48,614 bases of DNA from Betaproteobacteria bacterium (lineage in GTDB: Bacteria > Pseudomonadota > Gammaproteobacteria > Burkholderiales > Burkholderiaceae_D): the NCBI GenBank assembly GCA_013287275.1, contig JABDED010000016.1, positions 1-48,614 on the forward strand. The letters run 5' to 3'. A program made the translations under genes and the position numbers. Positions 70-40,344 of the stretch are shown piece by piece. Under the pieces are notes generated by a model. The model ran no database searches. It was not told the DNA's origin and saw only the letters and a program-made list of their open reading frames with translations. How positions within the stretch are numbered: the first letter of the stretch is position 1; each line of letters begins with the position of its first letter.

Positions 70-1284
70 CTACTTCTTCGCTTTCTCTATATAGCAATTC
101 TCACGCAGGAAGCGCATGGCGCCGGTGTAGTTGCTATCCCAGTCATCCATAAGGTAGTTATTCGCTTCTTCCACAAACTCTTCCCAGTCTGCCAGCAGGC
201 TTTCCTGCTTTTCATGCGGGGCAGCCATCTTGATGAACTCGGCCGCGGCATCCGGATTGAAGCCCTCGTCGCGGAGCTTCTTGACCAGCTTTTTGGCGCC
301 GGCTTCAGTCAGGCTGGTTTTCGGCGGCATGTCTGCGGCCAGGCACAGGAATAGGGTCAGCAGTGCATCGATGTCGGTCTTGCCCTTGGTGAGCTTGGTC
401 CACTCCTTGGAGACCAGCGCATCGTATTCTGAAGTATCTTCCACTTCATAATCGCGCAGGTAATACCTGTCCTTGAGTTCATAGACCAGTTTATCCAGCG
501 AGATTTCCAGGTCCTGGATACGCGGCAAATCACGTTCGGCCACTTCTTTCTGGATACGCTCCGCGATCGCGCGGTATTTCTCAGGGATTTCTCCAGCCTT
601 GCCGTTCGTTGTCTTCTTGAGCTTGATCCCTTTGGCGCGGATGGCATCCAGCAGGCCGGCAAACTCCACCTGGTTCAACAAGCTGCCATTGGCCTTGCCG
701 GCCAGGCGCAACAACATCGCGGTGCGGATCACGGATTCGGCATCGGCGTCCTGCTCCCGCAGATCCTCGCGTTCCAGCTCCAACTGCTGCCCAAACCACA
801 GGCCCGCTTCTATCTCCAGCATATTGGCCTTGCGCTGCGCCAACGCCTTTTGATAGTCGATCTGGTTTTCCTTGCGCGACCAGTATTCCAGGAAGTCTTC
901 CACCCGGCCTTTTTCTTCGCGTCCCAGCAATGCATATTCCGGCATCGCGAACAGCGCCTTGATCAGGCCGGAACCGCCGCGCGACAAAGACAGGAAACTA
1001 TTGTCGCGGATCAGCTTGGCCGCCACCTCCAGGTCGCCATTGGCAGTCTCAAACAAATACAGGCTGACCAGGTTGACGATGCGCTTGCGCGCGGTTTCTA
1101 TTTCCGGCCGCAAATACTTGCTGCCGAAAGCCTCCGCGATCTGCACCATGCCCTTGGGGGCGTCGGCTTCTATCGCGGCAATCTTGGCCTGGTCCACGAC
1201 ACCTTGCTGAACGCCAAGGCGCAAGGCCCTTTCAAAGAAAGGACGATCTTCAAACAATGAGATATTGGACGTATTTTCAGGCAT
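70..1284 (-). CDS. Conserved-looking protein of unknown function, last gene seen of the J-domain operon
   Basis: A 404-residue soluble protein that I do not recognise. It has no signal peptide or membrane segment. The sequence is rich in Glu, Asp, Lys and Leu and looks largely helical; the C-terminal third carries acidic and aromatic patches (for example DWEEFVEEANNYLMDDWDSN). It is the fourth gene of a minus-strand run that starts with a J-domain protein at 3018, 97 bases after the 253-residue gene. The ATG at 1284 has only a weak upstream GATGAG as ribosome site, so the start is likely but not certain. By context it may be a partner or substrate adaptor of an Hsp70/J-protein pair; that is inference. 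Codon use fits a native gene. Confidence 0.8.
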   Translation of the reverse strand: MPENTSNISLFEDRPFFERALRLGVQQGVVDQAKIAAIEADAPKGMVQIAEAFGSKYLRPEIETARKRIVNLVSLYLFETANGDLEVAAKLIRDNSFLSLSRGGSGLIKALFAMPEYALLGREEKGRVEDFLEYWSRKENQIDYQKALAQRKANMLEIEAGLWFGQQLELEREDLREQDADAESVIRTAMLLRLAGKANGSLLNQVEFAGLLDAIRAKGIKLKKTTNGKAGEIPEKYRAIAERIQKEVAERDLPRIQDLEISLDKLVYELKDRYYLRDYEVEDTSEYDALVSKEWTKLTKGKTDIDALLTLFLCLAADMPPKTSLTEAGAKKLVKKLRDEGFNPDAAAEFIKMAAPHEKQESLLADWEEFVEEANNYLMDDWDSNYTGAMRFLRENCYIEKAKK

Positions 1285-1381
1285 CGCTCATCAGTCGTTT
1301 CAAGGGAAGTGGAACCGCCAGGCCCCAGCCAGGGCGGGCGGTGCAAATCGGGAAGCGTTTCGGCCTCCCGCGGGCGGTGGG

Positions 1382-2143
1382 CTACAGGGCGGACTCTTCT
1401 TCGTCGCCCTTGTCTACCTTCTCGTTCTTCGGCGCGTCTTCTTCATCCTCGTCCGACACCAGCGCATCGGCCTCGGCATCTTCCAGCGCCTGCGCACTGT
1501 TCTGGTAGCGGGTGCGCAATTTCAGCAGCACTTCCCTGAACAGCTCAGGCAACTGGAAGCGCAGGATGTAGGTCACTTCCATCCAGTCATGGTCGATCAC
1601 ATTTGCCATATCCTGCGCGGACACCGACGCATCGGTATCGCCGCTCAGGTTCATCAAGTCATCGTCTATGGCCTGGGTCTTGACGTCGTCGCCGTATTCG
1701 AACAGGTCGAAGGTGCCATAGCGATAAAAATGTTCCACACGCTTGGTGCGCTCGGACAGGTAATCGACCAGCGCATCGTAGCCACCGTCGAGCTCGCCGA
1801 TTTCATACAGGAATTCGGCTGCGTCGGCACCTTCGCGAAAGATGACGGAATTGATCATGCCGCGCAATTGTTCATGGCTCAGGTCGCCGTAGCGCTTTTC
1901 CAGCACCACCGCCTTGGCGAACTGTTCCGGCGTCACCAGCAGGTTGACCAGCGATTCTTTCGACGCATCGTATTCGCGGATGATCGCCAGCAAATCCTTG
2001 GGTGGAAACTCGTCCAGCGCCGCCACCAATGCATGGTCGCCCTCGGTTTCCGCCATGGTTGCCAGTGCCGATTCTGCACCGACGATGTCGCCTATCTTGA
2101 CCAGGCTTTGCGCCTCTATCAGCGCGGGGAAATTTGTTTTCAT
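1382..2143 (-). CDS. Acidic protein of unknown function, third gene of the J-domain operon
   Basis: A 253-residue soluble protein of no family I recognise. The body looks helical. The last 30 residues are strongly acidic (DAEADALVSDEDEEDAPKNE and onward), probably a disordered tail. The ATG at 2143 has an AGGAC element about 6 bases upstream. The gene begins 18 bases after the stop of the preceding gene, which argues for one transcript with the J-domain gene. Like its two companions it has no signal peptide. Function unknown; the shared context with a J-domain protein suggests a chaperone-linked role, which is inference. Confidence 0.8.
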   Translation of the reverse strand: MKTNFPALIEAQSLVKIGDIVGAESALATMAETEGDHALVAALDEFPPKDLLAIIREYDASKESLVNLLVTPEQFAKAVVLEKRYGDLSHEQLRGMINSVIFREGADAAEFLYEIGELDGGYDALVDYLSERTKRVEHFYRYGTFDLFEYGDDVKTQAIDDDLMNLSGDTDASVSAQDMANVIDHDWMEVTYILRFQLPELFREVLLKLRTRYQNSAQALEDAEADALVSDEDEEDAPKNEKVDKGDEEESAL

Positions 2144-2161
2144 AGTTGTCCTAAGTTCTGC

Positions 2162-2743
2162 TTAATCTTTACGGTCGAAGCCCTGCTCCACGAGCCAGTC
2201 GGCCCCGGCTTCTTCCAGATCGCCCTGATCTTCATCGTATTCGTCGCCGCTGCCGTTGCGCGTATCCAGATGGTAGCGGCCTTCATTGGCTTCGCTCTCT
2301 TCTTCATCTTCCTCTTCGGCCTCTTCCACGTTGGAAGGATTGTTTGCGCGCGACTGTCCGCTTTTGTTCAGGTATTCCAGGCAAGCGGCGGTCACCATGA
2401 ACTGCTCGCCATCTGCATTATCCAACACTATTGCACTCAATTTCTCAGCCCATGTCTCAATGACCAGGCTGCCCTTCAATTCTTTCCAGGAAGGAAATCT
2501 GTTCGGCTCCTTGGATGCCAATGCTTCCATGACCAAGGGATTCATGAACTTGATGCCGCCATGAAAGGCGACCGCGACCATTTCAGGGTTGCTCTTCAAC
2601 ATGGACAACAGCAGCGGCACTTCTCCGCGTTTGGTCATCAGGCGTTTGCGCAGAATATCGTTGCCTTCGGAATCGCTGCGCAAATCCTCCAGTTCCGCTT
2701 CATACGCAGATGCCAGGGCCTCAAAAAAATTAGACAGCTTCAC
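2162..2743 (-). CDS. Acidic protein of unknown function, second gene of the J-domain operon
   Basis: About 193 residues, unrecognised. I choose the GTG at 2743 over the in-frame ATG at 2773: GTG is preceded by CAGGAG at 8 bases, and it overlaps the TGA stop of the J-domain gene as GTGA, a usual sign of translational coupling. The protein starts MKLSNFFEALASAYEAE. The C-terminal half is very acidic (a run of Glu/Asp around EEAEEEDEEESEANEG) and ends with VEQGFDRKD. No membrane segment or signal peptide. The physical coupling to the J protein is seen directly; any cooperation in protein folding is inference. Confidence 0.82.
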   Translation of the reverse strand: MKLSNFFEALASAYEAELEDLRSDSEGNDILRKRLMTKRGEVPLLLSMLKSNPEMVAVAFHGGIKFMNPLVMEALASKEPNRFPSWKELKGSLVIETWAEKLSAIVLDNADGEQFMVTAACLEYLNKSGQSRANNPSNVEEAEEEDEEESEANEGRYHLDTRNGSGDEYDEDQGDLEEAGADWLVEQGFDRKD

Positions 2744-3018
2744 TGCAATACTCCTGATAAATAATTCTTCCAAATTTCTGTTGCGGTCTGCAGAGGGTCT
2801 TCCAGCAGGTTGCGCCGGCGATTCTCGTCATAGGCGGCCCGGGCCGCATCGTCCGACAGCACGTCGTAGGCTTCCCTGATCTCGCGGAATTTTTCCGGCG
2901 CTATTTCCGACGTATTCCTGTCCGGGTGAAATTCAGACGCTTTCTGCCTGAATGCTTTTTTCACCTCCGACAGCGGCGCCGTACTCGGGATACCCAACAC
3001 AAAGTAATAGTCTTTCAT
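2740..3018 (-). CDS. J-domain (DnaJ-like) mini-protein
   Basis: A 92-residue protein that is almost entirely a J domain: YYFVLGI at the N-terminus, the HPD motif at residues 31-33 that stimulates Hsp70 ATPase, then the helix with FREIREAYDVLSD. There is no Gly/Phe linker, zinc-finger or client-binding domain as in full DnaJ, only a short tail ending WKNYLSGVLQ. It therefore probably relies on partner proteins for specificity. The ATG at 3018 has AGAGGG 5 bases upstream. It is first in a four-gene minus-strand operon with three unknown acidic proteins, and its stop overlaps the next start by 4 bases. An Hsp70 partner is not in the window. Confidence 0.9.
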   Translation of the reverse strand: MKDYYFVLGIPSTAPLSEVKKAFRQKASEFHPDRNTSEIAPEKFREIREAYDVLSDDAARAAYDENRRRNLLEDPLQTATEIWKNYLSGVLQ

Positions 3019-3180
3019 GCACCCTCTTTAGTTCAATAATAGCAACGTATGCAGCCATACGTTCTGAAAGCCCCGCATCTTAACATTGCCGGCCCCTCAG
3101 GACGCAAAAAAGAAGGGAAGATAGAAGGAGTTGCAAGAGCATCGCTTGATTTCAACACGCCCTAAAGTATAGCTCCCCGA

Positions 3181-3217
3181 TAAAAACAAAAACGGGCCCA
3201 TCAAGGGCCCGGTTTTT
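3181..3217. terminator. Bidirectional intrinsic terminator
   Basis: The stem CGGGCCC / GGGCCCG (3193-3199 with 3205-3211) has a 5-base loop. It is followed by GTTTTT on the plus strand and by TTTTTGTTTTTA on the minus strand. It most likely ends the membrane-protein gene that stops at 3279 and insulates it from the J-domain operon, whose promoter must lie between here and 3018. Confidence 0.8.
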
Positions 3218-3278
3218 ACGGCGAAAGCAAGTATTCAATCAGCAATAAATCGGCGCTGCGTCTGCACCAAGCCAGCGA

Positions 3279-3644
3279 TCAAGCGCGCTTTTTCCTGGCA
3301 ATGAAGGCGATCAGGGCAACCAGCAGCACTACCGGCAATATGACCGGGGCCAGCGCCAGCAAGATGGCCAGCAGCACAAAGGCAAACACGCCTATCAGCA
3401 CCAGGGACACGCCGGCCAGCACCGCGCCGACGACAGCCAGGGCAAACACGGTGGCCACCGCGCCTATCACCAGGCCGCCGAACGCAAAACCCGCGCCGGC
3501 AAAGCCGTCTACGGTGTCCCCGTCCATAGTCACGGCCCAGCCGGCATCGCTGCCTCCCATCGCTACCAGGGCGCAGACTGCGATCGCAGCCAGGATAAGC
3601 AGCGCTGTAAAGCTCAGCAAGTAGTTACGTGTTCTGGTGTTCAT
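3279..3644 (-). CDS. Small hydrophobic membrane protein, function unknown
   Basis: A 121-residue protein starting MNTRTRNYLLSF. The ATG at 3644 is chosen because AAAGGA lies about 8 bases upstream; an upstream in-frame extension to 3749 has no ribosome site and poor codon choice. It has one N-terminal membrane segment (about residues 9-28), a short polar stretch with DGDTVDG, and then an almost continuous hydrophobic Ala/Val/Leu/Gly region (about 48-115) that should form two or three further helices. It ends in the basic ARKKRA. I do not recognise the family. A long inverted repeat lies in its leader (3661-3775) and a terminator follows the gene, so it is probably transcribed alone. Confidence 0.7.
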   Translation of the reverse strand: MNTRTRNYLLSFTALLILAAIAVCALVAMGGSDAGWAVTMDGDTVDGFAGAGFAFGGLVIGAVATVFALAVVGAVLAGVSLVLIGVFAFVLLAILLALAPVILPVVLLVALIAFIARKKRA

Positions 3645-3660
3645 GGCAAGGTCCTTTGGT

Positions 3661-3775
3661 CTTTTTGTCATTTCGGCTAGGATTTCTGTCGCGATCAATA
3701 TTGTTTGATCCGATGTAAGCATCTTAGGGAAACTTGAAATCCCGCTCAATTCACCTGCGACAGAATGACAAAAAG
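3661..3775 (-). promoter_or_regulatory. Long inverted repeat in the leader of the membrane-protein gene
   Basis: On the minus strand CTTTTTGTCATTCTGTCGC (3775-3757) can pair with GCGACAG plus AATGACAAAAAG (3692-3661), interrupted by a 13-base bulge. The 3' arm ends about 4 bases before the AAAGGA ribosome site of the gene starting at 3644. This may be an RNA stem controlling translation or a binding site in the promoter region; which one cannot be told from sequence. The rest of the gap 3645-4013 shows no gene. Confidence 0.5.
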
Positions 3776-4013
3776 CATGGATAAAGCGGCTAAAAGTGCA
3801 GATAAGCTAATGATATGGGCTTGGAAAACCGGCAAAAACGGCTGATCTCAAAAACCTGGGTAAAAAATTGGAAATTTTCCATGGAAATACTTCCCATGCA
3901 GGAACTGTTTCCATCCATGCTTGTCCATATCTGTCAGGCAACATAAATTGCCCTGAACTCTAATTAGACCTGCCGAGTAAAAAACGAGGCGGGCAATCAC
4001 CCGAGAGAACCCA

Positions 4014-6710
4014 ATGACGCCAAGATTATTATCCGCCAGTGTAGCGCTGGCCTGGGCAGCCGCTGCAGGCTTCGGCCTGAGCCATGCATATGCCCAGGCA
4101 GCCACCTCCCCCAGTCCCGCCGCCCCCATGGTCAGGCTGAAAGCCAGCGAACTGACGCTGGAGCGCCTGTATCCTGCCCGCAGCTATGCAGGACAAGCAG
4201 CGCACAACCTGCACTTCAGTGAAGACGGCCGCTACCTGGCCTACCTGTGGAATCCATTTGGCGAAAACGGTTCCGACCTGTATGTGTACGACACCCAGAC
4301 CGGACAGGGCACGCGCATCACTTCGCCGGCCATCATGAAGGCCTACGATGCCCCCGAGGACCTGGAGCGCTTCACCAAGAAGGGCCTGCAAAAAGAAAAA
4401 GAAGAAGCAGAACGCCAGGCCAAGGCCGAAGCGCAGGCCGCCTACCTGCGCGGTGAAAAGGTGGACCTGTATCAATGGGAAACCGCGGCGCTGGAAGTAC
4501 TGAAGCGCGAGTTGGCCGAGAAAAAAATCAAGGATGCAGCGAAGAAGGCAGAGCTGGATGCAGACGCGGCCAAAGAAAAGGCCGCCGCCGCAGCAGCCAG
4601 GCTGGACGGCAAGGGCGCAGTAGAAGTGGCGGAAGCGGACCGCAAGGCCGACGAAGCGGAAAAGAAAGCCGCCAAGCTCAGCGACAAACCCAAGGAACTG
4701 TGGGAATTGCGCGACGAGCTGAAGAAGAAGCTGGAAAAAGAAAAACTGAAACCCAGCGACCTGTACCCGGGCGTAGAAGATGTGGTGTGGGCCAAGACCC
4801 GCAATGAACTGATCTTCCAGTACCGCGGCGACCTGTTCCGCGTAAATATGGCCGACGGCAAGATAGAGCCGCTGGCCCAGACCGGCCGCCTGAAGCATAT
4901 CCTTGCCTATAACGCAGACGACAGCGGCTACCTGTATATGGACGACAAGCGCGTGTACAGCACCCGCTTCGACCGTGGCACCGTGATCCAGCTGAACCGC
5001 GAATTGTGGAACCCGGACGACGAAGAAAAGAAATACAAGATCACCGACACCGTGCTCAGCGAAGACAAGCAGTGGATGGCCATTTCCGCCGAAGCGCCGG
5101 AACCCAAGCCTGAGGGCGATGCCAAGCCTGCTCCTGCCGAACGCCAGGTAGAGATCATGAACTATAGCGAGCGCTTTGCCACCGCCAAGAAAGTCCCGCG
5201 CGAGGTATCGGACGACAAGCGCAAGGTACTGGCGTCGGCGCTGTATATACGCCGTGTGGCCGACGTATCGGCCAAGCAGCCGGAACCGGTGTTCACCAAC
5301 GCCGGCGGCGACATCTGGTTTGAAATGAGCAAGGTCAGCTGGGCCAAGGACGGCAGCTGCTATACCTTCTCCACCTGGGAACGAGAAAAAGAACTGCTGC
5401 GCATCTATGTCGGCAAGGCCGAAGAAGGCGTCAAACCGGCGATGGTGTTTGAACGCAGGGTCAAGGTCGGCCACGAGGTGGTGAACGTGTTGTCGCCGCG
5501 CTTCACGCCGGACGGCAGCAAGCTGATCGCCATCATGGACGAAGACGGCTTCCGCCAACCGTATGTGATCGATACTGCCAACGGCAGCGCCCGCGCTATC
5601 GTCAAGGGCAATTTTGAAGCCCACAACATCATAGGCTTCACACCGGATAGCAAAACCATGTTCGTTACCGCCAACCGCGACGATTTCGCCGCGATGAATT
5701 TGTACCGGGTGGACCTCGCCAGTGGCGACATGAAGGCGCTGGGCCAGCCTGGCGACTACCACCGCACCACCGCCGTCTCCGAAGACGGCCGGCATATCGC
5801 CAGCATGGCCGGCCAGTGGTCGCGCCGCCCGGAGCTGCAATACCTGGACTTGCCAAAAGCCACGCACCGCACGCTGACGCAGAGCCACGATCCGGCCTGG
5901 AACCAGGTTGATTTGATGCGCCCGGAGCGCTTCCACTACACCAACCGACACGGCGACGCGATCCAGGCCTATGTATTCAAGCCCGCCAGTTGGAGCGCCA
6001 GCGACCACCGCCCTGCCGTCGTCTACACCTACGGCGGCCCGCTGAACGACAGGCATACGGTAGAGACCGACAGCTTCCAGCAAACCGCCTACCTGTTCGG
6101 CATGTACATGGCAGCCAAGCACGGCTACGTGATGGTCGCCGTGGACCCGCGCGGCCATTCCGACTACGGCCGCCATTTCAGCGACGCCAACTGGGAACAA
6201 CCGGGCAAACCGCAAACCGAAGACCTGGAAGACCTGGCCAAATACATGGACAAGAAACTGGGCGTGGATGGCAAACGCATAGGCCTGACAGGCTGGAGCT
6301 TCGGCGGCTACCAGACCCAGTACACGATGTACACCAGCCCCGACACCTTCGCCGCAGGCATCGCCGGCGCCGGCCCTACCGAATGGGAAAACTACAACAG
6401 CTGGTACAGCGGCCGCACGATAGGCAAGACAGAGCGCAGCAAACCCACGCTGCGCCGCTTCTCCTTGTTACCGCTGACCGCAGGCCTGAAAAAACCGCTG
6501 ATGCTGGTACACGGCATGCAAGACCCGAATGTGCTGTACCAGGACACCGTTAACGTGTACCGCGCATTGCTGGAAAACGGCAAGGAAGACCTGGTAGACC
6601 TGTTCCTGGATCCGGATGGCGTGCACGGGCTGGGCGGTGTGGTGAAACCCAAGGCTTTGCACAAGAAGTATGAGAGTTTTTTCCTGGAGCATTTGGGTGA
6701 AGGGAAATAA
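4014..6710 (+). CDS. Secreted S9 (prolyl oligopeptidase family) serine peptidase
   Basis: 898 residues. The N-terminal signal peptide (about residues 1-28, ending SHAYAQA) sends it to the periplasm or beyond. A beta-propeller-type region with repeated SxDGxxLA-like strands precedes the C-terminal alpha/beta-hydrolase domain. The catalytic triad can be read: Ser762 in GWSFGGYQT, Asp837 in HGMQDPNVLY, His871 in DGVHGLGG. The family cleaves short peptides, often after proline or as dipeptidyl peptidase; the exact substrate is not predictable. Unusual: residues about 118-245 form a long Lys/Glu/Ala-rich, probably coiled-coil insertion before the propeller strands resume. GAGAGAA lies just before the ATG. 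It stands alone and is closed by a strong hairpin terminator. Confidence 0.92.
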   Translation: MTPRLLSASVALAWAAAAGFGLSHAYAQAATSPSPAAPMVRLKASELTLERLYPARSYAGQAAHNLHFSEDGRYLAYLWNPFGENGSDLYVYDTQTGQGTRITSPAIMKAYDAPEDLERFTKKGLQKEKEEAERQAKAEAQAAYLRGEKVDLYQWETAALEVLKRELAEKKIKDAAKKAELDADAAKEKAAAAAARLDGKGAVEVAEADRKADEAEKKAAKLSDKPKELWELRDELKKKLEKEKLKPSDLYPGVEDVVWAKTRNELIFQYRGDLFRVNMADGKIEPLAQTGRLKHILAYNADDSGYLYMDDKRVYSTRFDRGTVIQLNRELWNPDDEEKKYKITDTVLSEDKQWMAISAEAPEPKPEGDAKPAPAERQVEIMNYSERFATAKKVPREVSDDKRKVLASALYIRRVADVSAKQPEPVFTNAGGDIWFEMSKVSWAKDGSCYTFSTWEREKELLRIYVGKAEEGVKPAMVFERRVKVGHEVVNVLSPRFTPDGSKLIAIMDEDGFRQPYVIDTANGSARAIVKGNFEAHNIIGFTPDSKTMFVTANRDDFAAMNLYRVDLASGDMKALGQPGDYHRTTAVSEDGRHIASMAGQWSRRPELQYLDLPKATHRTLTQSHDPAWNQVDLMRPERFHYTNRHGDAIQAYVFKPASWSASDHRPAVVYTYGGPLNDRHTVETDSFQQTAYLFGMYMAAKHGYVMVAVDPRGHSDYGRHFSDANWEQPGKPQTEDLEDLAKYMDKKLGVDGKRIGLTGWSFGGYQTQYTMYTSPDTFAAGIAGAGPTEWENYNSWYSGRTIGKTERSKPTLRRFSLLPLTAGLKKPLMLVHGMQDPNVLYQDTVNVYRALLENGKEDLVDLFLDPDGVHGLGGVVKPKALHKKYESFFLEHLGEGK

Positions 6711-6737
6711 GTATCCCAAGGTAAGACAGACATAAAA

Positions 6738-6787
6738 AACAAGGGCGCGGAAAAATCATCTGTTAATGATTTTTCCGCGCCCTTGTT
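6738..6787. terminator. Perfect 22-bp hairpin terminator after the S9 peptidase
   Basis: The arms 6738-6759 and 6766-6787 are exactly complementary over 22 bp around the 6-base loop CTGTTA. The stem has a GC-rich base (GGGCGCGG) and an A/T-rich top. It closes the peptidase gene that stops at 6710. Its central 36 bases match in length and register the terminator at 12256-12301, and its right arm reappears, degenerate, before the second REP doublet at about 10893. Confidence 0.75.
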
Positions 6788-6808
6788 CTATTTCAGCAAT
6801 CACGTTTC

Positions 6809-6953
6809 GTAGGGTGCCAATAGCGCAGCGTATTGCACCGAACAGAATTTAAACTAAACTGGCACATGATCGAAGCTGAATGTAGATACTGCAAACCGTC
6901 ATGGCATTTTGAAACCGCTTGCGGTGCAATACGCTGCGCTATTGGCACCCTAC
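6809..6953. repeat. REP-doublet (REPIN/MITE-like) element, copy A
   Basis: A 145-bp element with perfect 32-bp terminal inverted repeats that start GTAGGGTGCCAATAGCGCAG. Each arm is itself GTAG plus an imperfect hairpin (GGTGCCAATA with TATTGCACC), the form of REP elements mobilised by RAYT (TnpA_REP) transposases. The middle has no coding potential. About 90% identical to copy B at 10936-11080 in a hand alignment (about 15 differences, nearly all transitions). With the terminator it fills most of the 431-base gap 6711-7141; the remainder (6954-7141) shows no clear gene and should hold the promoter of the next gene. Confidence 0.8.
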
Positions 6954-7141
6954 CCGCTGTATAACATGTAGTAGCTCAGGCTTGACCTGACACATCAAAT
7001 CAGACGACCGGCAGCTGTCGCCCCCCGAAAGCGGACTTAGCTTAGGTTTGAACTCCTATCGAGGATTATGAAAGACGCCCTATGTAGTCTAGAATAAGTC
7101 TGCGTTTTTGTCAGGTAACTTTGAAAGTTTGCGAGGATTTA

Positions 7142-10100
7142 ATGTACCAACTTGGTTCGGATGAAAACAGCACGCTCTCCCGAGTTCTCAAGGAATTCCA
7201 CCGAAAAGCTGTAGTATCCCGATGCGCGGGCTTGCTGACCGTTCCAGCCTTCCACGCAAACACGATTCGGATAGAGACGTTAGTTCACTTAGCTGTGGCT
7301 TATTGTGGCGGCAAGCGCAAACCTACATTTTCAGATGTTGGCCGCTGGCTTAACCGAAACCTGGGAAATTCTGCGGTATCGAGTGCTGAAGACCCGCCCG
7401 AGGATGTTTTTGTTAGCAACATCTGTACGGCTCAGGGAAATTTTCGGCTGTTCGAGGGAACTTGGGAAAGCAATGACTTTCACCTTCAGCATATGTTGGA
7501 TACGGCAGAGTCTCTATCTTTAAGCGTACCGCCAATTGCGATTGCACTTCAACGCGTTTATGCATTGCTTCGATTGGGCGATGTAGTTGCTGCGCGTCTC
7601 AATCTTTTACGGTGGCACGCGGCGCCATCGTCACGGGAAGGTAATTTAACCGTCGGCCCAAATACAAATATCGATACGCGGGCGGCGGCGGTTACCTTTT
7701 CGATTGACGACCTTTATGCTGTAGGAATTGAGCCTGGGGATTTGGAACCTTTCTTGTTCACTGAAGCTGATAGGGCTACGCTTTCATCCCAAGTGGTCAC
7801 TCAAGGGACAGCGCTGGAACTGCGGCCACTGGTTCCTTTCGGCGATGAGTACGTACTTGCGCTACCTGCCGGCGTGGGATCGGCGCTACGTAGCTATATT
7901 TTGCGAGAGGTAGTCGCGGCAAAGGCTTTCTCTGTCTTTGAGAAAGCTCTGAGTTTACGGCAAGCATCGCTCGTCCGTCAGTTGCTGCGTCGGATGGAGG
8001 ATGAGTACGAGTCACTTTTATCTAGTGAGAAAAACCCGGAATTGCCTCAGATACAAAGCTGGTGTTTTGTTCGCGACACGAACCAACACGTTCATGTGGT
8101 AGTTCTTCATGAAGACCTAAAAGAATGCGTTGACCTCGGATGGGGTGTTACGAGAGAGCTCGGGGCTGCTCAACAAAGCGCCTTAGACGATTTTTTGCAA
8201 GGTAGTACTGTGCATTGTGAGAAACAGCCGAATTTTAAGCACGGTACTACACTTGTGATTTTCGCTGGCGTCGGTAGAGCCTTGTCTACTTCGCTGCCAA
8301 GATTAGGCGATTCTTGGGATATTCTTTCGCTGGGGCTTGCTGACTTGGATATGTTAGTAGCTTACTGTGATGATGCGCTTGAGCAGCTTTTTAAATTCCG
8401 GCACCAAGCTGCTTGGGTTACGAACAAGGGAGCTAAGTATTTCAACTTTGGAGACTTCTCACTCTTCTGTCAGTGGGTCCAGGACGACTTCAGCATCTGG
8501 CCGCGTGATTTACCACTTAGAGAGGGCTCGGTCTATATGGTTCCTCCGTCCTCTGTACTCGATTTCCGAAAAAATGTGCGAAGGTCACGCGATAAGCATT
8601 CAATACAAACTTGGTCAGGCAAGTGGATGGTTTGTGAGCGCTATGGAAGAAATTCCTTTTTCGACAGCCAGACCAAGCGTCCCATTTTTGTTTGCATGGA
8701 GGTGATTGAACACTTGATGCTCGCTGCCGCTGTGGAAACCGTGAAAGGAACACGATGGTTGATTTGCGTAAACGGCGGCTTTGATGCGAATAAGAGAAAG
8801 TATGTATTCCGTCTATGGTCTGACTTCCTAAATTCGTTTGCAGAGGTAGCGCTTTTCATTGATGAGAATTCGACGTCAATGCGGGCCGATGTCTTGGAAG
8901 TCTTCTTGGATTGTACGATGATGGTCGACGTCGAATCTGCAGCATACTCCGCCGCAGACGCCACGAGTAAAGATGCCGCTGTCGTAGAGATGACTGAAGG
9001 CCGTGCAGAAGTTCGACTTCCCGTGAATTTTTTTGCAGGCTTCCAGCAAGTGGAAAATGGAGGGGAGCGTGCTCTAATTTCAGTATTCGTTCGAGCGCTG
9101 GAGAAAGCTGCGAACTTGACCATTCCGTTTGAGGCGGAATTTGTAGAGCGCGCGGTAAATGTGGCCTTGCCGTCAGACGGCGCACGTCTTATTCATCTCT
9201 TTAGTAGCAAACTTAAGTCCGACCATCTGATTTGGAGTGCAAGCTCTGAACCGCGTTGGTTAAATCGCGCAGATGCTGCGTTTGTCCGTTTAAATCTAGC
9301 AAACGCGCCGCCTACTAATTCGAAGGTGGTAAACGGAAAAGAGGCCTGCACTGAGATTCTAAACGAATACGTGTCAAGTATTTGGGAGGAGATTAAGCTC
9401 TCGCTCAATGGGTTGGATTTAAGTTCGCTGTTGAAGGCTACATTTTTCTCGAATGAGGCTATCTACAGCGATAGGATCCACTGGCGCAGGACAGCACGCG
9501 CCGTATTATCCTTGAACGAAAATGGCGAAGGTCTTGATGCCGCATTTACCCAAGAACAAAAAAGAAATAGAACTTCATTGGCAACGCGGGTGCTCGCTGA
9601 AATGGCATTGTGCGAGTGCGCTGTTGAGGGAGGCGCATTAGTGACCGATTCGGAATTCGACTTATTGGCCGCGAAGGTTTCCCTTCTTATTGAGGTTGCG
9701 TCGGATTCTGATGCCATTCGTGGCAAGTTGGCACCTGGGCGGTTGACCATCTATCCAAACGGAGAATACGAGATTGACAGGTCCTACCAAGCGACAATCA
9801 TGCAGCCCTTCGTGGAGAATCAATACAATGATGAGTACCAAGATGCAGCCGGTGAGTACTCTCAGTACTATGAAAACAAGAATACCAGCGGTAAATCGAA
9901 AGCGTCTGATGTGTACAGCCAGGACTTCCTATTGGCTTTTGAGGCAGAGTACCGTCTAAGTCCGGATGAGCTAATCGACTGCTTCGCGGAACTGTCTGAC
10001 TTCGCAACCGACATCGGTCAAGTTGTTGTTGTCGCTTCTATAAATGAGATAAAGCGACGAATCGGTCAAAATCGTGGTTTGAGCCAAGTGAAGTGTGATG

Positions 10101-10831
10101 CGTTCGTCAAGGCCTTCTCCCTGGTTCGTAGACCCAAATGGGAGAAGGCACCGAAAGGATTTGCGGCGAGGGACATTTGGCCTTGGCTTTTTAAAAGAAG
10201 ACTCTCGATTATTGTGAGGCCCGTGGTGTCCACCGGTGCATCAGATAGCGATACGGCATACTTCGGCATCAGTCAAATTCTGCAATCGCTGAACTACCTG
10301 TTGGGGCGGTCCAGCAAAGCGTGGATGCCGCAGGACTTCTTTGTCTCCCAAGAGATGAAGGCATTTTCTGGAAAGACTGCCCATGCGTTAGGGGGCGTGT
10401 TCGAGGACGATGTCGTTCGTGAGTTGAACGCGAATGGATGGGAAGCGCGTGCACGCGTTCAGATGAGCGAGCTTGGTGCGCCTCGAGAATTGGGGGATGT
10501 CGATGTGCTGGCCTGGCGGCCAGACGGGCGCGTGCTCATCATTGAGTGCAAGCGTTTGCAGCCGGCACGGACAGTTGGTGAAGTGGCTGACGTCTTGCAG
10601 AAGTTTGCTGGAGAAGAGAAAGACAAATTAGCCCGTCACCTTAGACGACTGAGTTGGCTTCAGGCGTCGCCATCAGGAGTTCCCCGTGCTCTCAGGTTAG
10701 ATAAAGCGGCGATAATTTCATCTATTCAAGGGCGTCTGGTCACAAACACAGACGTGCCAATGATGTACGCGAAAGACCTGCCTATCCTTGTCTCGGAAAT
10801 CATTCCGACTCGATTACTGAAGACTATTTGA
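7142..10831 (+). CDS. Large protein with C-terminal PD-(D/E)XK nuclease domain; possible defence protein
   Basis: 1229 residues. The ATG at 7142 is preferred over the in-frame TTG at 7121 because GAGG lies 5 bases before it. About the first 1050 residues match no family I know; I see no Walker A motif, helicase motifs, membrane segment or signal peptide. Near the C-terminus GGVFEDDVVRELNANGW (Glu1088) precedes Asp1121 in GDVDVLAW, then Glu1135 and Lys1137 in IIECKRL: the restriction-endonuclease-like active site. A basic helix follows (KDKLARHLRRLSWL). Three 60-base rows counted by hand give 43-50% GC, below the neighbours. It is a single-gene insert flanked by direct repeats. Likely a DNA- or RNA-cutting protein, perhaps antiphage; the nuclease motif is seen, the role is inferred. 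Confidence 0.85.
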   Translation: MYQLGSDENSTLSRVLKEFHRKAVVSRCAGLLTVPAFHANTIRIETLVHLAVAYCGGKRKPTFSDVGRWLNRNLGNSAVSSAEDPPEDVFVSNICTAQGNFRLFEGTWESNDFHLQHMLDTAESLSLSVPPIAIALQRVYALLRLGDVVAARLNLLRWHAAPSSREGNLTVGPNTNIDTRAAAVTFSIDDLYAVGIEPGDLEPFLFTEADRATLSSQVVTQGTALELRPLVPFGDEYVLALPAGVGSALRSYILREVVAAKAFSVFEKALSLRQASLVRQLLRRMEDEYESLLSSEKNPELPQIQSWCFVRDTNQHVHVVVLHEDLKECVDLGWGVTRELGAAQQSALDDFLQGSTVHCEKQPNFKHGTTLVIFAGVGRALSTSLPRLGDSWDILSLGLADLDMLVAYCDDALEQLFKFRHQAAWVTNKGAKYFNFGDFSLFCQWVQDDFSIWPRDLPLREGSVYMVPPSSVLDFRKNVRRSRDKHSIQTWSGKWMVCERYGRNSFFDSQTKRPIFVCMEVIEHLMLAAAVETVKGTRWLICVNGGFDANKRKYVFRLWSDFLNSFAEVALFIDENSTSMRADVLEVFLDCTMMVDVESAAYSAADATSKDAAVVEMTEGRAEVRLPVNFFAGFQQVENGGERALISVFVRALEKAANLTIPFEAEFVERAVNVALPSDGARLIHLFSSKLKSDHLIWSASSEPRWLNRADAAFVRLNLANAPPTNSKVVNGKEACTEILNEYVSSIWEEIKLSLNGLDLSSLLKATFFSNEAIYSDRIHWRRTARAVLSLNENGEGLDAAFTQEQKRNRTSLATRVLAEMALCECAVEGGALVTDSEFDLLAAKVSLLIEVASDSDAIRGKLAPGRLTIYPNGEYEIDRSYQATIMQPFVENQYNDEYQDAAGEYSQYYENKNTSGKSKASDVYSQDFLLAFEAEYRLSPDELIDCFAELSDFATDIGQVVVVASINEIKRRIGQNRGLSQVKCDAFVKAFSLVRRPKWEKAPKGFAARDIWPWLFKRRLSIIVRPVVSTGASDSDTAYFGISQILQSLNYLLGRSSKAWMPQDFFVSQEMKAFSGKTAHALGGVFEDDVVRELNANGWEARARVQMSELGAPRELGDVDVLAWRPDGRVLIIECKRLQPARTVGEVADVLQKFAGEEKDKLARHLRRLSWLQASPSGVPRALRLDKAAIISSIQGRLVTNTDVPMMYAKDLPILVSEIIPTRLLKTI

Positions 10832-10892
10832 AGTACAAACTAATTTCATGAACCCTCTTCTGGTTGTCAGTGGCCCCAAGAAGACCAACAGA

Positions 10893-10935
10893 TGATTATT
10901 CCCCCGCCCCTCTCCTATTTCAGCAATCACGTTTC
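10893..10935. repeat. Duplicated left flank of REP doublet, with half a terminator
   Basis: The 21 bases just left of copy B (10915-10935) are identical to the 21 bases left of copy A (6788-6808). Further left, 10893-10914 is a degenerate version of the right arm of the peptidase terminator (6766-6787). The direct repeat is therefore longer than the mobile element itself. The opposite arm of the hairpin is missing here, so this copy cannot form the terminator. Confidence 0.65.
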
Positions 10936-11080
10936 GTAGGGTGCCAATAGCGCAGCGCATTGCACCGAACGGGATTTAAACTAAGCTGGTACATGATCGA
11001 AGCTGAATACAGGTATTGCAAACGGTCGTGATATTTTGAAGCCGCTTGTGGTGCAATACGCTGCGCTATTGGCACCCTAC
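10936..11080. repeat. REP-doublet (REPIN/MITE-like) element, copy B
   Basis: A 145-bp element, same length and orientation as copy A, with one mismatch between its 32-bp terminal inverted repeats. Together the two copies bracket the nuclease gene. No coding potential. The shared sequence extends left of the element but not right of it, so the pair is not explained by two independent insertions alone. Confidence 0.8.
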
Positions 11081-11099
11081 CTACTACTCCTTGTGACTA

Positions 11100-11507
11100 C
11101 TACGAATTCTCCGCGAGATTTTTCAATTTTCTCAGCACATCCGCAAAATCCGCAGTAACCATAGGCCCAAATTCCGCCTCGGCGGGTCCGGTAATTTCTG
11201 TGCTGTAGATGACCTTGGTGCGGCCTGAGTCCAAGGGAACGATCCTGTGGTACACCACTACCCGGGTTCCGTCTATGACGGTTTCATCGGTAAAGCCTTC
11301 GTTCTCTTTGACATCCGTCAAGGTGCTGATGAATGCTTCTTCGCCGGGAGGCTGCATCGAGAAGGTCGTTCCGCTCGCAAACGGGCCACGCATTTCCAGG
11401 TATTCGATGCCGTCGTTCCAATTTTTCCAGCCAGGGACGTCTGAAAACAGCTTCCAGATTTGCGCAGGGCTAGCTGTTGTCTCCATGCTTTCTTCATGAG
11501 TCCACAT
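11100..11507 (-). CDS. SRPBCC-fold protein (polyketide cyclase/dehydrase-like)
   Basis: A 135-residue cytosolic protein with the layout of the START/SRPBCC superfamily: an N-terminal strand with helix-forming SPAQIWKLFSDVPGWKNWN, a central FASGTTFSMQPPGE strand region, and a C-terminal long helix (MVTADFADVLRKLKNLAENS). The fold binds small hydrophobic ligands; no catalytic residue can be named. The ATG at 11507 has an excellent GGAGGAAT ribosome site. It stops about 20 bases from REP copy B. It lies in the accessory patch and may have arrived with it. No recognisable partner. Confidence 0.85.
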   Translation of the reverse strand: MWTHEESMETTASPAQIWKLFSDVPGWKNWNDGIEYLEMRGPFASGTTFSMQPPGEEAFISTLTDVKENEGFTDETVIDGTRVVVYHRIVPLDSGRTKVIYSTEITGPAEAEFGPMVTADFADVLRKLKNLAENS

Positions 11508-11710
11508 AATTCCTCCGGGTTGTCTGGCACGATTCAGTTCGGATGCTTGCTTTCTGCTTCAAAACGGCGAGAGCCGCCAACGCGATGATTGCCCTGACGG
11601 CTCCCGTTTCTAAAACCAAACCAGCATATTCCAGTCGTTTGCAGTTTGCAGCTTCAGCAATTTGCATAGCATGATCCTGCAAGAAAATGCCGTATGACTA
11701 ACTCAATCGC

Positions 11711-12055
11711 TTACCAGAATTTCCAAAACGGTTTGGTACGGGCTTTGGGAGGGGGATATTCAAAAGATGATTGGCATTCAAGACCATCGCCATTTATCTG
11801 GAAGCTTATTTTCGCCTTGATCCAGAAATTTCCACTCTCCATGTCACGAACGTACATTTCGTCAATCAGGTCTCGCAATTTTTCGCTAATGCTGGCAGTA
11901 CCCGGCTCACCTTCACTCTTGAGTTTATAGGTGATGTGTACCCCGTCAACGCAATCAATTGTCAGTGAGCCCTTTGTCCATTCTTTTGGAATGCACAATA
12001 CCATTTCCGAAATGAGCCGGGTCAATACGTCCGCTTGTTGTTGAAACTTATCCAC
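11711..12055 (-). CDS. YezG/DUF600-like immunity protein (orphan)
   Basis: About 114 residues from the GTG at 12055, chosen because GAAAGG sits 7 bases upstream; the ATG at 12139 has no clear site and would add 28 residues of unlike composition. The pattern resembles YezG/DUF600 immunity proteins: an N-terminal helix leading to MVLCIPKEW, strands with DGVHITYKLK, then a helix LRDLIDEMY and SGNFWIKAKISFQINGDG before FEY. Such proteins neutralise LXG- or polymorphic-type toxins. No toxin gene is seen nearby, so it would be an orphan. The gene and its upstream region are AT-rich, a sign of transfer. Family assignment is from memory of the pattern and is tentative. Confidence 0.6.
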   Translation of the reverse strand: MDKFQQQADVLTRLISEMVLCIPKEWTKGSLTIDCVDGVHITYKLKSEGEPGTASISEKLRDLIDEMYVRDMESGNFWIKAKISFQINGDGLECQSSFEYPPPKARTKPFWKFW

Positions 12056-12255
12056 GTTCAGCCTTTCAATTTTATTTGGTTGAGATGCTGTTCTTCGCCC
12101 TATGCATGGAGCCAAAGGCGCTTTCAATTTTATCAACATTTATTATTAAATAACAACAAATTATTTTTTGATAAGATAATTATTGATACTGACAGGTCAT
12201 TAAGTTTGTATTGATTGATTAGTTTATCTGCCGACTGAACGCATCTGCCAAAAGA

Positions 12256-12301
12256 AAAAAGCGCGGGGCAATCATCTCTCAATGATTGCCCCGCGCTTTT
12301 T
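12256..12301. terminator. Bidirectional hairpin terminator after slyD
   Basis: The 20-bp perfect stem (12256-12275 with 12282-12301) has GC-rich arms, a 6-base loop and T runs on both strands. On the minus strand it ends the slyD transcript. The AT-rich 12140-12250 stretch beside it has no gene I can support and should hold the promoter of the immunity-like gene. Confidence 0.85.
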
Positions 12302-12345
12302 CGATTAGATCACTGCAACACCTGAACAGGTGTTGCTAACTCCGA

Positions 12346-12825
12346 TCAATGATGATGGCCGTGCTCGCCGTGTACGTGGCCGTGCGCGATTTCTTCGTCG
12401 CTGGCGGCGCGTACTTCCAGTACGCTGGCGTCAAAGCGGATGGTCATGCCGGCCAGTGGATGGTTGCCGTCCACGGTGACCTTGCCTGCGTCGATGGCGG
12501 TGACGCGGAACTGCATCGATTCTTCGGTTTCCGGATCGCGGGTTTCAAACATCATGCCGACTTCGATATCGGGTGGGAACAGGCCGATCTCTTCTTCGCG
12601 CACCAATTCTGCTTCGTGCTCGCCGAAGGCGTCTTGCGGCGCCATCGTCACCGAGATGGTGTCGCCTGCTGCTTTGCCTTCCAGCGCTTCTTCCACCGCC
12701 GGCAGGATATTGTCGTAGCCGCCGTGCAGGTAGACGATAGGCTCTTCGTTTTTGTCGATGATCTTGCCGGCGTCGTCGAACATTGTGTAGTTCAGCGAGA
12801 CGGCGGTATTTTCAGTAATTTTCAT
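12346..12825 (-). CDS. slyD: FKBP-type peptidyl-prolyl isomerase SlyD
   Basis: 159 residues. The FKBP domain with the inserted IF chaperone flap is recognisable: NTAVSLNYTMFDDAGKIID, then PIVYLHGGYDNILPAVEEAL, the flap around DAFGEHEAELVREE, then GNHPLAGMTIRFDASVLEVR. It ends in a short His-rich tail (HGHVHGEHGHHH) that binds nickel or other metals, as in SlyD. It catalyses proline cis/trans isomerisation in the cytosol and can serve metalloenzyme maturation. The gene stands alone between its own terminator and cobQ, whose stop lies 144 bases downstream of the slyD start in window coordinates. Confidence 0.93.
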   Translation of the reverse strand: MKITENTAVSLNYTMFDDAGKIIDKNEEPIVYLHGGYDNILPAVEEALEGKAAGDTISVTMAPQDAFGEHEAELVREEEIGLFPPDIEVGMMFETRDPETEESMQFRVTAIDAGKVTVDGNHPLAGMTIRFDASVLEVRAASDEEIAHGHVHGEHGHHH

Positions 12826-39009: not shown

Positions 39010-39204
39010 CGCCTGTCCGTTTTACCAATGACGGGCTTTTGCAGCGATCACATAGCTATTTTTCCCATATGCCGGAACCGGCGCCGTTTTTTGTTAAACT
39101 GCTGGGTTTTAATGGATAAGCTTGCGCCGGCTCGCCCGCGCCCAGGCTGCCGACATGCCATTCAAGCAATTCTATTCATCTGCAATCCACCCCAAGAGGA
39201 CCCC

Positions 39205-40344
39205 GTGAGCGATTATCCCGTCATTAGCTGGACCGAAGACGGCGAGACCCGTTCTGCCCGCTGGCATTCCGAAAGCGGATCGCCTGCGCCTAAAAAAGTC
39301 ATCATCGCCGACGACCGCATTACCGCCGACAGTGCCTACCGGCTGGCGTGCGAGGGTACGGCCCTGCTATGGCGCGGCGATTTCCAGAATGCCCGCCAGT
39401 TGCTGCAGGCGCTGGCGCGCCGCACCGAACACAAGCCTGGAAAATCGCGCAAAGAGGCCAAAGCACCATCTTCGCCGACCGAGGCTTTCCACCTGCACCG
39501 GCAGGCGCAATCGCAAAGGGCGCGCACGCTGGCGATGGTGCTGCTGCCTTTTGAAACCGATTTCCGCATCCCACTGCGCCGCGCACCGGATGTGCAGCAA
39601 GCCTGCAGCGAAGCCTATGGCAAGGTATCCGAACCCTTTGTTGCGTCCTTGAGGGAACTACAGGGGCTGATAGGCGCGCATGAATGGCGCAAAAAAGGCG
39701 TGGAAATCCCGGCACTGGAAGGGCGCATCCATCCCTACTATGGCGTGTTTTCTCCGGTCAGGGGCGAATACATAGGCCTGGTGGCCGATACTCCGCTGCC
39801 GTCCACAGCACTGGCATTCGACATAGGTACCGGTACCGGCGTGCTGGCGGCGGTGCTGGCCAAGCGCGGCGTCAGGCATATCGTCGCCACCGACCAGGAC
39901 CAGCGCGCGCTGGCCTGCGCACGTGAAAACCTGGACCGGCTGGGCGTGCAAAAGCAGGTCGAAGTTATCCAGGCCGACCTGTTCCCCGAGGGCCGCGCGC
40001 CGCTGGTGGTCTGCAACCCGCCCTGGGTGCCGGCCAGGCCGAACTCGCCGATAGAACATGCGGTATATGATCCGGACAGCCGCATGCTGCGCGGCTTCCT
40101 GGACGGATTGGCTGCCCATCTAGAGCCCAGGGGCGAAGGCTGGCTGATCCTGTCCGACCTGGCCGAGCATCTGGGCTTGCGCTCCAGGGCAGAATTGCTG
40201 GCGCTGATTGAAGGCGCCGGCCTGAAGGTACTGGGCAAATCGGACATACGGCCGCACCATCCGAAAGCCGCCGATACGCAAGACCCTTTGCATGCGGCGC
40301 GCTCAGCGGAGATAACGTCCTTATGGCGCCTGGGCGCCAAATAA
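39205..40344 (+). CDS. Class I SAM-dependent methyltransferase (HemK/Mrm-like)
   Basis: 379 residues from the GTG at 39205, preceded by AAGAGGA; upstream in-frame sequence has no such site. The N-terminal 190 residues are of unknown fold. The C-terminal domain has motif I AFDIGTGTGVLAAVLAKRG, the acidic loop IVATDQDQRALACARENL, and the catalytic NPPW in VVCNPPWVPARPN, as in enzymes that methylate side-chain amide or base nitrogens. The substrate cannot be named. It is followed 50 bases later by a small zinc-ribbon gene, possibly on the same transcript. Confidence 0.88.
   Translation: MSDYPVISWTEDGETRSARWHSESGSPAPKKVIIADDRITADSAYRLACEGTALLWRGDFQNARQLLQALARRTEHKPGKSRKEAKAPSSPTEAFHLHRQAQSQRARTLAMVLLPFETDFRIPLRRAPDVQQACSEAYGKVSEPFVASLRELQGLIGAHEWRKKGVEIPALEGRIHPYYGVFSPVRGEYIGLVADTPLPSTALAFDIGTGTGVLAAVLAKRGVRHIVATDQDQRALACARENLDRLGVQKQVEVIQADLFPEGRAPLVVCNPPWVPARPNSPIEHAVYDPDSRMLRGFLDGLAAHLEPRGEGWLILSDLAEHLGLRSRAELLALIEGAGLKVLGKSDIRPHHPKAADTQDPLHAARSAEITSLWRLGAK

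Follow-up and report, generated by a model that had tools for sequence, protein, structure and literature searches.

A divergent member of the Upx anti-phage family as strain-specific cargo at a variable locus of a Betaproteobacteria bacterium

Upx (Gao_Upx, PADLOC PDLC02221) is a single-gene defence family, solved as PDB 9WUF and labelled anti-phage by NCBI (NF042954). A table in a 2024 paper puts Upx under nucleic acid degradation (PMC10855318), a July 2026 paper counts Gao_Upx among the systems of unknown mechanism and reports it only in plasmid-refractory relatives (PMC13367071), and a third paper reports that Upx is nearly confined to a single hotspot of Pseudomonas PAGI-1 islands (PMC12629846). 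No paper on the mechanism of Upx was found in the open literature searched, where most subscription journals fall outside. Here we show that a 1229-residue protein encoded in a 48,614-nucleotide stretch of a Betaproteobacteria bacterium (GenBank assembly GCA_013287275.1, contig JABDED010000016.1, positions 1 to 48,614; hereafter the window) is a distant, divergent member of this named anti-phage family. A preliminary description made from the letters of this DNA had presented it as a nuclease of unrecognised family; the reading frame was confirmed by translation, and the family has a name and a solved structure.

This assignment comes from the following lines of evidence. First, the PADLOC Upx profile matches the protein with an E-value of 3.2e-155, residues 6-1211 aligning on profile positions 34-1251 of 1271. 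Second, NCBIfam NF042954, the strict Upx equivalog model, matches it with E 3e-171 and 571.3 bits, below the curated cut-off of 1900 bits, which leaves the protein outside the equivalogs of the reference Upx. Third, 9WUF is the sole Foldseek match of the predicted structure at E 0.001, and the Upx fold extends over its whole length (the 9WUF chain has a similar length, 1272 aa). Fourth, the gene stands alone like other Upx genes: the nearest neighbours change between 59 loci, no PADLOC family exceeding 3 and no Pfam family 6 of the 115 neighbouring open reading frames (ORFs). The window protein differs from PDLC02221/9WUF in sequence (24-25% identity), and Xenorhabdus Upx (P0002), which has the identical catalytic triad, belongs to a 53-row branch of the tree, whereas the window protein falls in a separate branch of 20 rows. 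Mrr-like type IV restriction enzymes and McrC also carry a PD-(D/E)XK nuclease domain at their C-terminus, but the match to Mrr_cat (PF04471; 12.9 bits, E 0.12) lies under the gathering cut-off of 21 bits, and no McrB-type GTPase was found among 20 other window ORFs scanned with Pfam. The cleavage domains of the type IIS enzymes FokI and Nt.BspD6I are further known systems that may be compared, for the tentative middle domain. Avs3 (Avs3a-Avs3b) is a neighbour and no kin of Upx; it adjoins the gene of the nearest relative, L025, and was not seen among the window ORFs scanned.

Relatives were picked by the patterns [LPY]GD[IV]D[VLI]LAW or PW[RLS][FY][GKR]RRLS[VIF], with slightly shorter forms for the viral collection. 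The scan of genome contigs yielded 154 stretches with 114 relatives (80 kept), and that of the viral collection 17, of which 5 were kept. The window protein was aligned with 72 of the 85 loci in 73 rows, the other 13 being omitted as partial, broken or out of frame (L035, L044, L078, L091, L092, L093, L098, L101, L102, L103, L106, L108, L109). Asp1121, Glu1135 and Lys1137 are identical throughout this alignment and in all 12 rows of a second one (window protein included), which places the triad far beyond chance; the segment G1118-W1125 was partly preselected by the search pattern, E1135 and K1137 were free of such selection, and the second pattern is the only one present in 13 of the 72 relatives. 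The D and (D/E)-x-K expected on the core strands of PD-(D/E)XK nucleases are thus conserved, and the predicted structure has strands at model 1100-1106 and 1111-1118. The site had been read correctly in the preliminary description except for Glu1088, placed ahead of the triad, where the alignment has E in 17 and N in 34 of 73 rows.

The distribution of the family is patchy. Counting the window's own genome, matches were found in 1 of 43 genomes of the genus (single-protein search), 1 of 195 of the family, 5 of 398 of the phylum and 5 of 399 of the order (7-row profile), some phylum and order matches being very distant (G308, G571, G684). Relatives of the window protein occur on six plasmid records, and on no phage record. 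Its partner in a FastTree tree is L025, a protein of an Oxalobacteraceae metagenome-assembled genome (MAG) with 69% identity to the window protein; the pair lies inside an eight-row starred group that also holds Nitrospirota, Bacillota, Gemmatimonadota and Zixibacteria rows. This mixture suggests transfer between phyla, with the qualification that MAG bins may hold stray contigs.

A single strain carries the gene, as cargo at a site that varies. In 22 of 23 genus relatives, the FKBP gene (window 12346-12825) is next to the genes that occupy window 70-2773, their tblastn matches lying 273-716 nt apart; an FKBP match was found in 39 of 40 other genus genomes, and the 23 read at the locus were chosen from the better of these 39. 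The twenty-third relative, G041, is the closest of those read (FKBP 99% identical) and has two proteins of the insert, the S9 peptidase (90%) and the SRPBCC protein (79%). Between these two genes (C2 around 151427-155810; L150:4430-8810) it has four other frames in place of Upx, which we named from their translations as DJ-1/PfpI-like, GNAT-like, unassigned and MFS-type; the place between these two genes thus varies in its own right. The right side of FKBP also varies, since the cobalamin genes there were matched at the locus only in G041 and are absent in L127, L128 and L129 (read over at least 12 kb on that side).

The gene had been described as AT-richer than its neighbours and as lying in a repeat-bounded island. 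Its GC content is indeed 0.500 versus 0.577 for the remainder of the window (lowest 1-kb step, 0.475), and its GC3 is 0.508 versus 0.766 and 0.749 in two resident genes, a comparison resting on plus-strand genes only. The direct repeats are also real, but they hold a palindromic core dispersed in the genome (40 BLAST pieces, window copies included), and the island is wider than they are. A full 183-nt match exists only between the two window copies, the next best being 80% identical over part. Two perfect terminator-like hairpins occur at 6738-6787 and 12256-12301 (arms of 22 and 20 bp); a degenerate half of the first precedes the right repeat copy, which suggests that the region after the S9 peptidase gene was locally duplicated. 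The features are collected in the table.

Table. Coordinates of the Upx-family gene, its predicted domains and its surroundings in the window
Feature	Position	Strand	Evidence
Upx-family gene, single gene, 1229 aa	7142..10831	+	Translation, PADLOC Upx profile, NCBIfam NF042954, fold match 9WUF
GAGGA, likely ribosome binding site	7133..7137	+	Read from sequence
N-terminal mostly helical region, residues 20-262, with acidic motif Glu83-Asp84 and Glu87-Asp88	7199..7927	+	Secondary structure of predicted structure, alignment
Tentative degenerate FokI-type (PD-(D/E)XK-like) domain, ~residues 267-443	7940..8470	+	
Tentative gluzincin-like (M1/M61 metallopeptidase) domain without HEXXH, ~residues 492-681	8615..9184	+	
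Helical region ahead of nuclease domain, ~residues 728-1012	9323..10177	+	Secondary structure of model
C-terminal PD-(D/E)XK nuclease domain, ~residues 1050-1229	10289..10828	+	
Codon of Asp1121, motif GD[IV]D	10502..10504	+	D in 73 of 73 rows
Codons of Glu1135-Cys1136-Lys1137, E-x-K	10544..10552	+	E and K in all 73 rows, C in 71
Left copy of 183-nt direct repeat, inverted arms GTAGGGTGCC...	6772..6954	+	Repeat search of window
Right copy of 183-nt direct repeat, 89% identical to left	10899..11081	+	Repeat search of window
Variable segment, ~9.6 kb	2774..12345	.	Lacking in all but one of 23 genus relatives read at this site

For 59 of the 85 loci, the ORFs predicted closest to the gene on its two sides (115 in all, called by a simple longest-first rule) were compared with 115 controls taken from 341 ORFs of ordinary genus flanks. 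At a PADLOC threshold of E 1e-10, the families matched numbered 146 for the neighbours versus 20 for the controls, a comparison that is qualitative. In Pfam, the neighbours include six phage integrases, three type I S domains, two HSDR_N and two RP-C. The clearest case is L025, where Avs3a (2374 bits) and Avs3b directly precede Upx, with a BrxH/SngC-like frame farther along, and a relative on a Bosea plasmid sits among helicase, TIR and caspase-family genes. On a Deinococcus plasmid (L012, 1-3369 and 3775-7470), the Upx relative comes straight after another large unnamed gene, of ~1281 aa.

Some side observations concern other relatives. A distant Upx-like family of 1236-1278 aa, with the same GD-x-D and E-C-K site, was seen at L014:6922-10749 (+), L024:9318-13154 (-) and L015:7474-11184 (+), two members carrying an N-terminal KSREKRERRLA; the PADLOC Upx profile matches the first two with E 2.2e-4 and 6.8e-4 and the third not at all, and no named defence family of the PADLOC library was found for them. 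The 1510-aa frame adjoining the L024 gene (L024:4904-9433, -) partially matches Avs1b (E 1.8e-9) and LmuA (E 7.2e-9). The Photorhabdus Upx and the one on a contig of the viral collection (L074:608-4243 and L105:734-4369) are identical over the aligned rows, so that this Upx may travel on a prophage-like element.

We consider it highly probable that the window protein is a Upx-family defence nuclease using the Asp1121/Glu1135/Lys1137 site. The gene would have arrived by horizontal transfer and form an anti-phage (or anti-plasmid) system by itself, in a branch apart from Xenorhabdus Upx. The protein would most likely be idle in the uninfected cell; its front part of ~1050 residues would bind a feature of the invading DNA or of an infection intermediate, this binding would release the C-terminal PD-(D/E)XK domain, and Asp1121, Glu1135 and Lys1137 would hold the metal and cut DNA. 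We infer that the protein cuts and that the cell is protected; to the reading that it acts on DNA of the invader and is gated by its front part we give an even chance. The self-contained defence nuclease of the preliminary description fits the Upx model, the fold, the invariant site, the patchy distribution and the strain-specific locus, and the N-terminal part may, as that description envisaged, sense or regulate. Two findings had been named there as grounds for abandoning this view, a housekeeping fold and a homologue in every relative at this locus; both were looked for and neither was found.

Several points weigh against this proposal. The score of 571 bits against a cut-off of 1900 means that function is not simply transferable to the window protein. 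The neighbour comparison counts models, not proteins, with much overlap between models (type I specificity subunits). Three of the six neighbours scanned beside L025 match nothing in PADLOC. The tree was built by a fast method and has long branches. Around the window gene itself, no defence island is visible among the 20 other ORFs scanned, which are part of the window's plausible genes: 15 match ordinary Pfam families (cobalamin, transport, transketolase, tRNA synthetase and similar) and 5 match nothing. The expectation of patchy homologues in defence islands is borne out for patchiness and for some relatives beside Avs3, type I restriction or integrase genes, but not for the window. Likewise, no restriction or helicase family occurs among these ORFs, in line with the claim that the window offers the nuclease no methylase, ATPase or helicase as a partner, but a small-domain methyltransferase (39028-40344, MTS/PrmA-like) and two CobB/CobQ-type ATP-binding proteins do.

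The most probable alternative is abortive infection, in which the triggered nuclease would destroy host nucleic acid (chromosome or RNA) and stop or kill the cell, with no selective cutting of phage DNA. The C-terminal fold matches include the signal-activated nucleases Cdn1 and Card1, and the neighbouring ORFs that were scanned include no methylase, which implies that self-DNA would be spared by control and not by marks; but the matches also include the DNA-structure-specific enzymes Hjc and EndoMS and do not separate the two modes. We regard abortive infection as possible, though the less probable outcome. That plasmids or other mobile DNA, not phages, are the main target appears rather unlikely: the link to plasmid-refractory relatives is a correlation among several systems, and the NCBI family label is anti-phage. 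It is improbable that the gene is a passenger, left over intact from a mobile element but silent or without function, as its base composition, unlike that of resident genes, and its bounding repeats could suggest, for it has 1229 codons without a stop, its catalytic residues are retained and a readable ribosome site (GAGGA) ends 4 bases upstream of the ATG. A housekeeping repair or recombination nuclease, which the resemblance to Hjc and EndoMS might recall, is hardly credible, being contradicted by the distribution: the search of 43 genus genomes left 42 without a match, and none lies at the window locus in the 23 relatives read.

In the front part, the acidic motif E-D-P-x-E-D (residues 83-88, window 7388-7405) is well kept, with E83 in 72, D84 in 69, E87 in 72 and D88 in 70 of 73 rows. 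No FokI-type catalytic (D/E)-x-K was found in residues 255-459, where 312 and 401 are the only positions to keep an acid in at least 50 of 73 rows and no position has K in at least 40. Similarly, no HEXXH was found among the positions kept in at least 50 rows in residues 485-700, which include N639 and E642. A tentative idea, which we think would more probably fail than hold, is that Upx consists of three stacked enzyme-derived folds of which only the C-terminal PD-(D/E)XK is alive, the dead FokI-type and dead gluzincin-like domains forming a sensor that gates the nuclease, and that the 20-row branch of the window protein is a second Upx type with its own trigger. The dead FokI-type domain would then hold or probe DNA, and the family-specific Asn639-x-x-Glu642 pair would lie near the would-be zinc motif site of the gluzincin-like domain, a placement estimated from aligned ranges.

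Together, these data show that the initial observation is real in its main points and that the defence reading is well supported: the apparently orphan nuclease of the window is a catalogued kind of defence cargo. For the family, the invariant triad names the exact residues, and the deep second branch provides a natural comparison. The potential for surprise lies in the tentative dead-enzyme architecture which, if true, would give a concrete hypothesis for how a large protein may sense infection without a partner.
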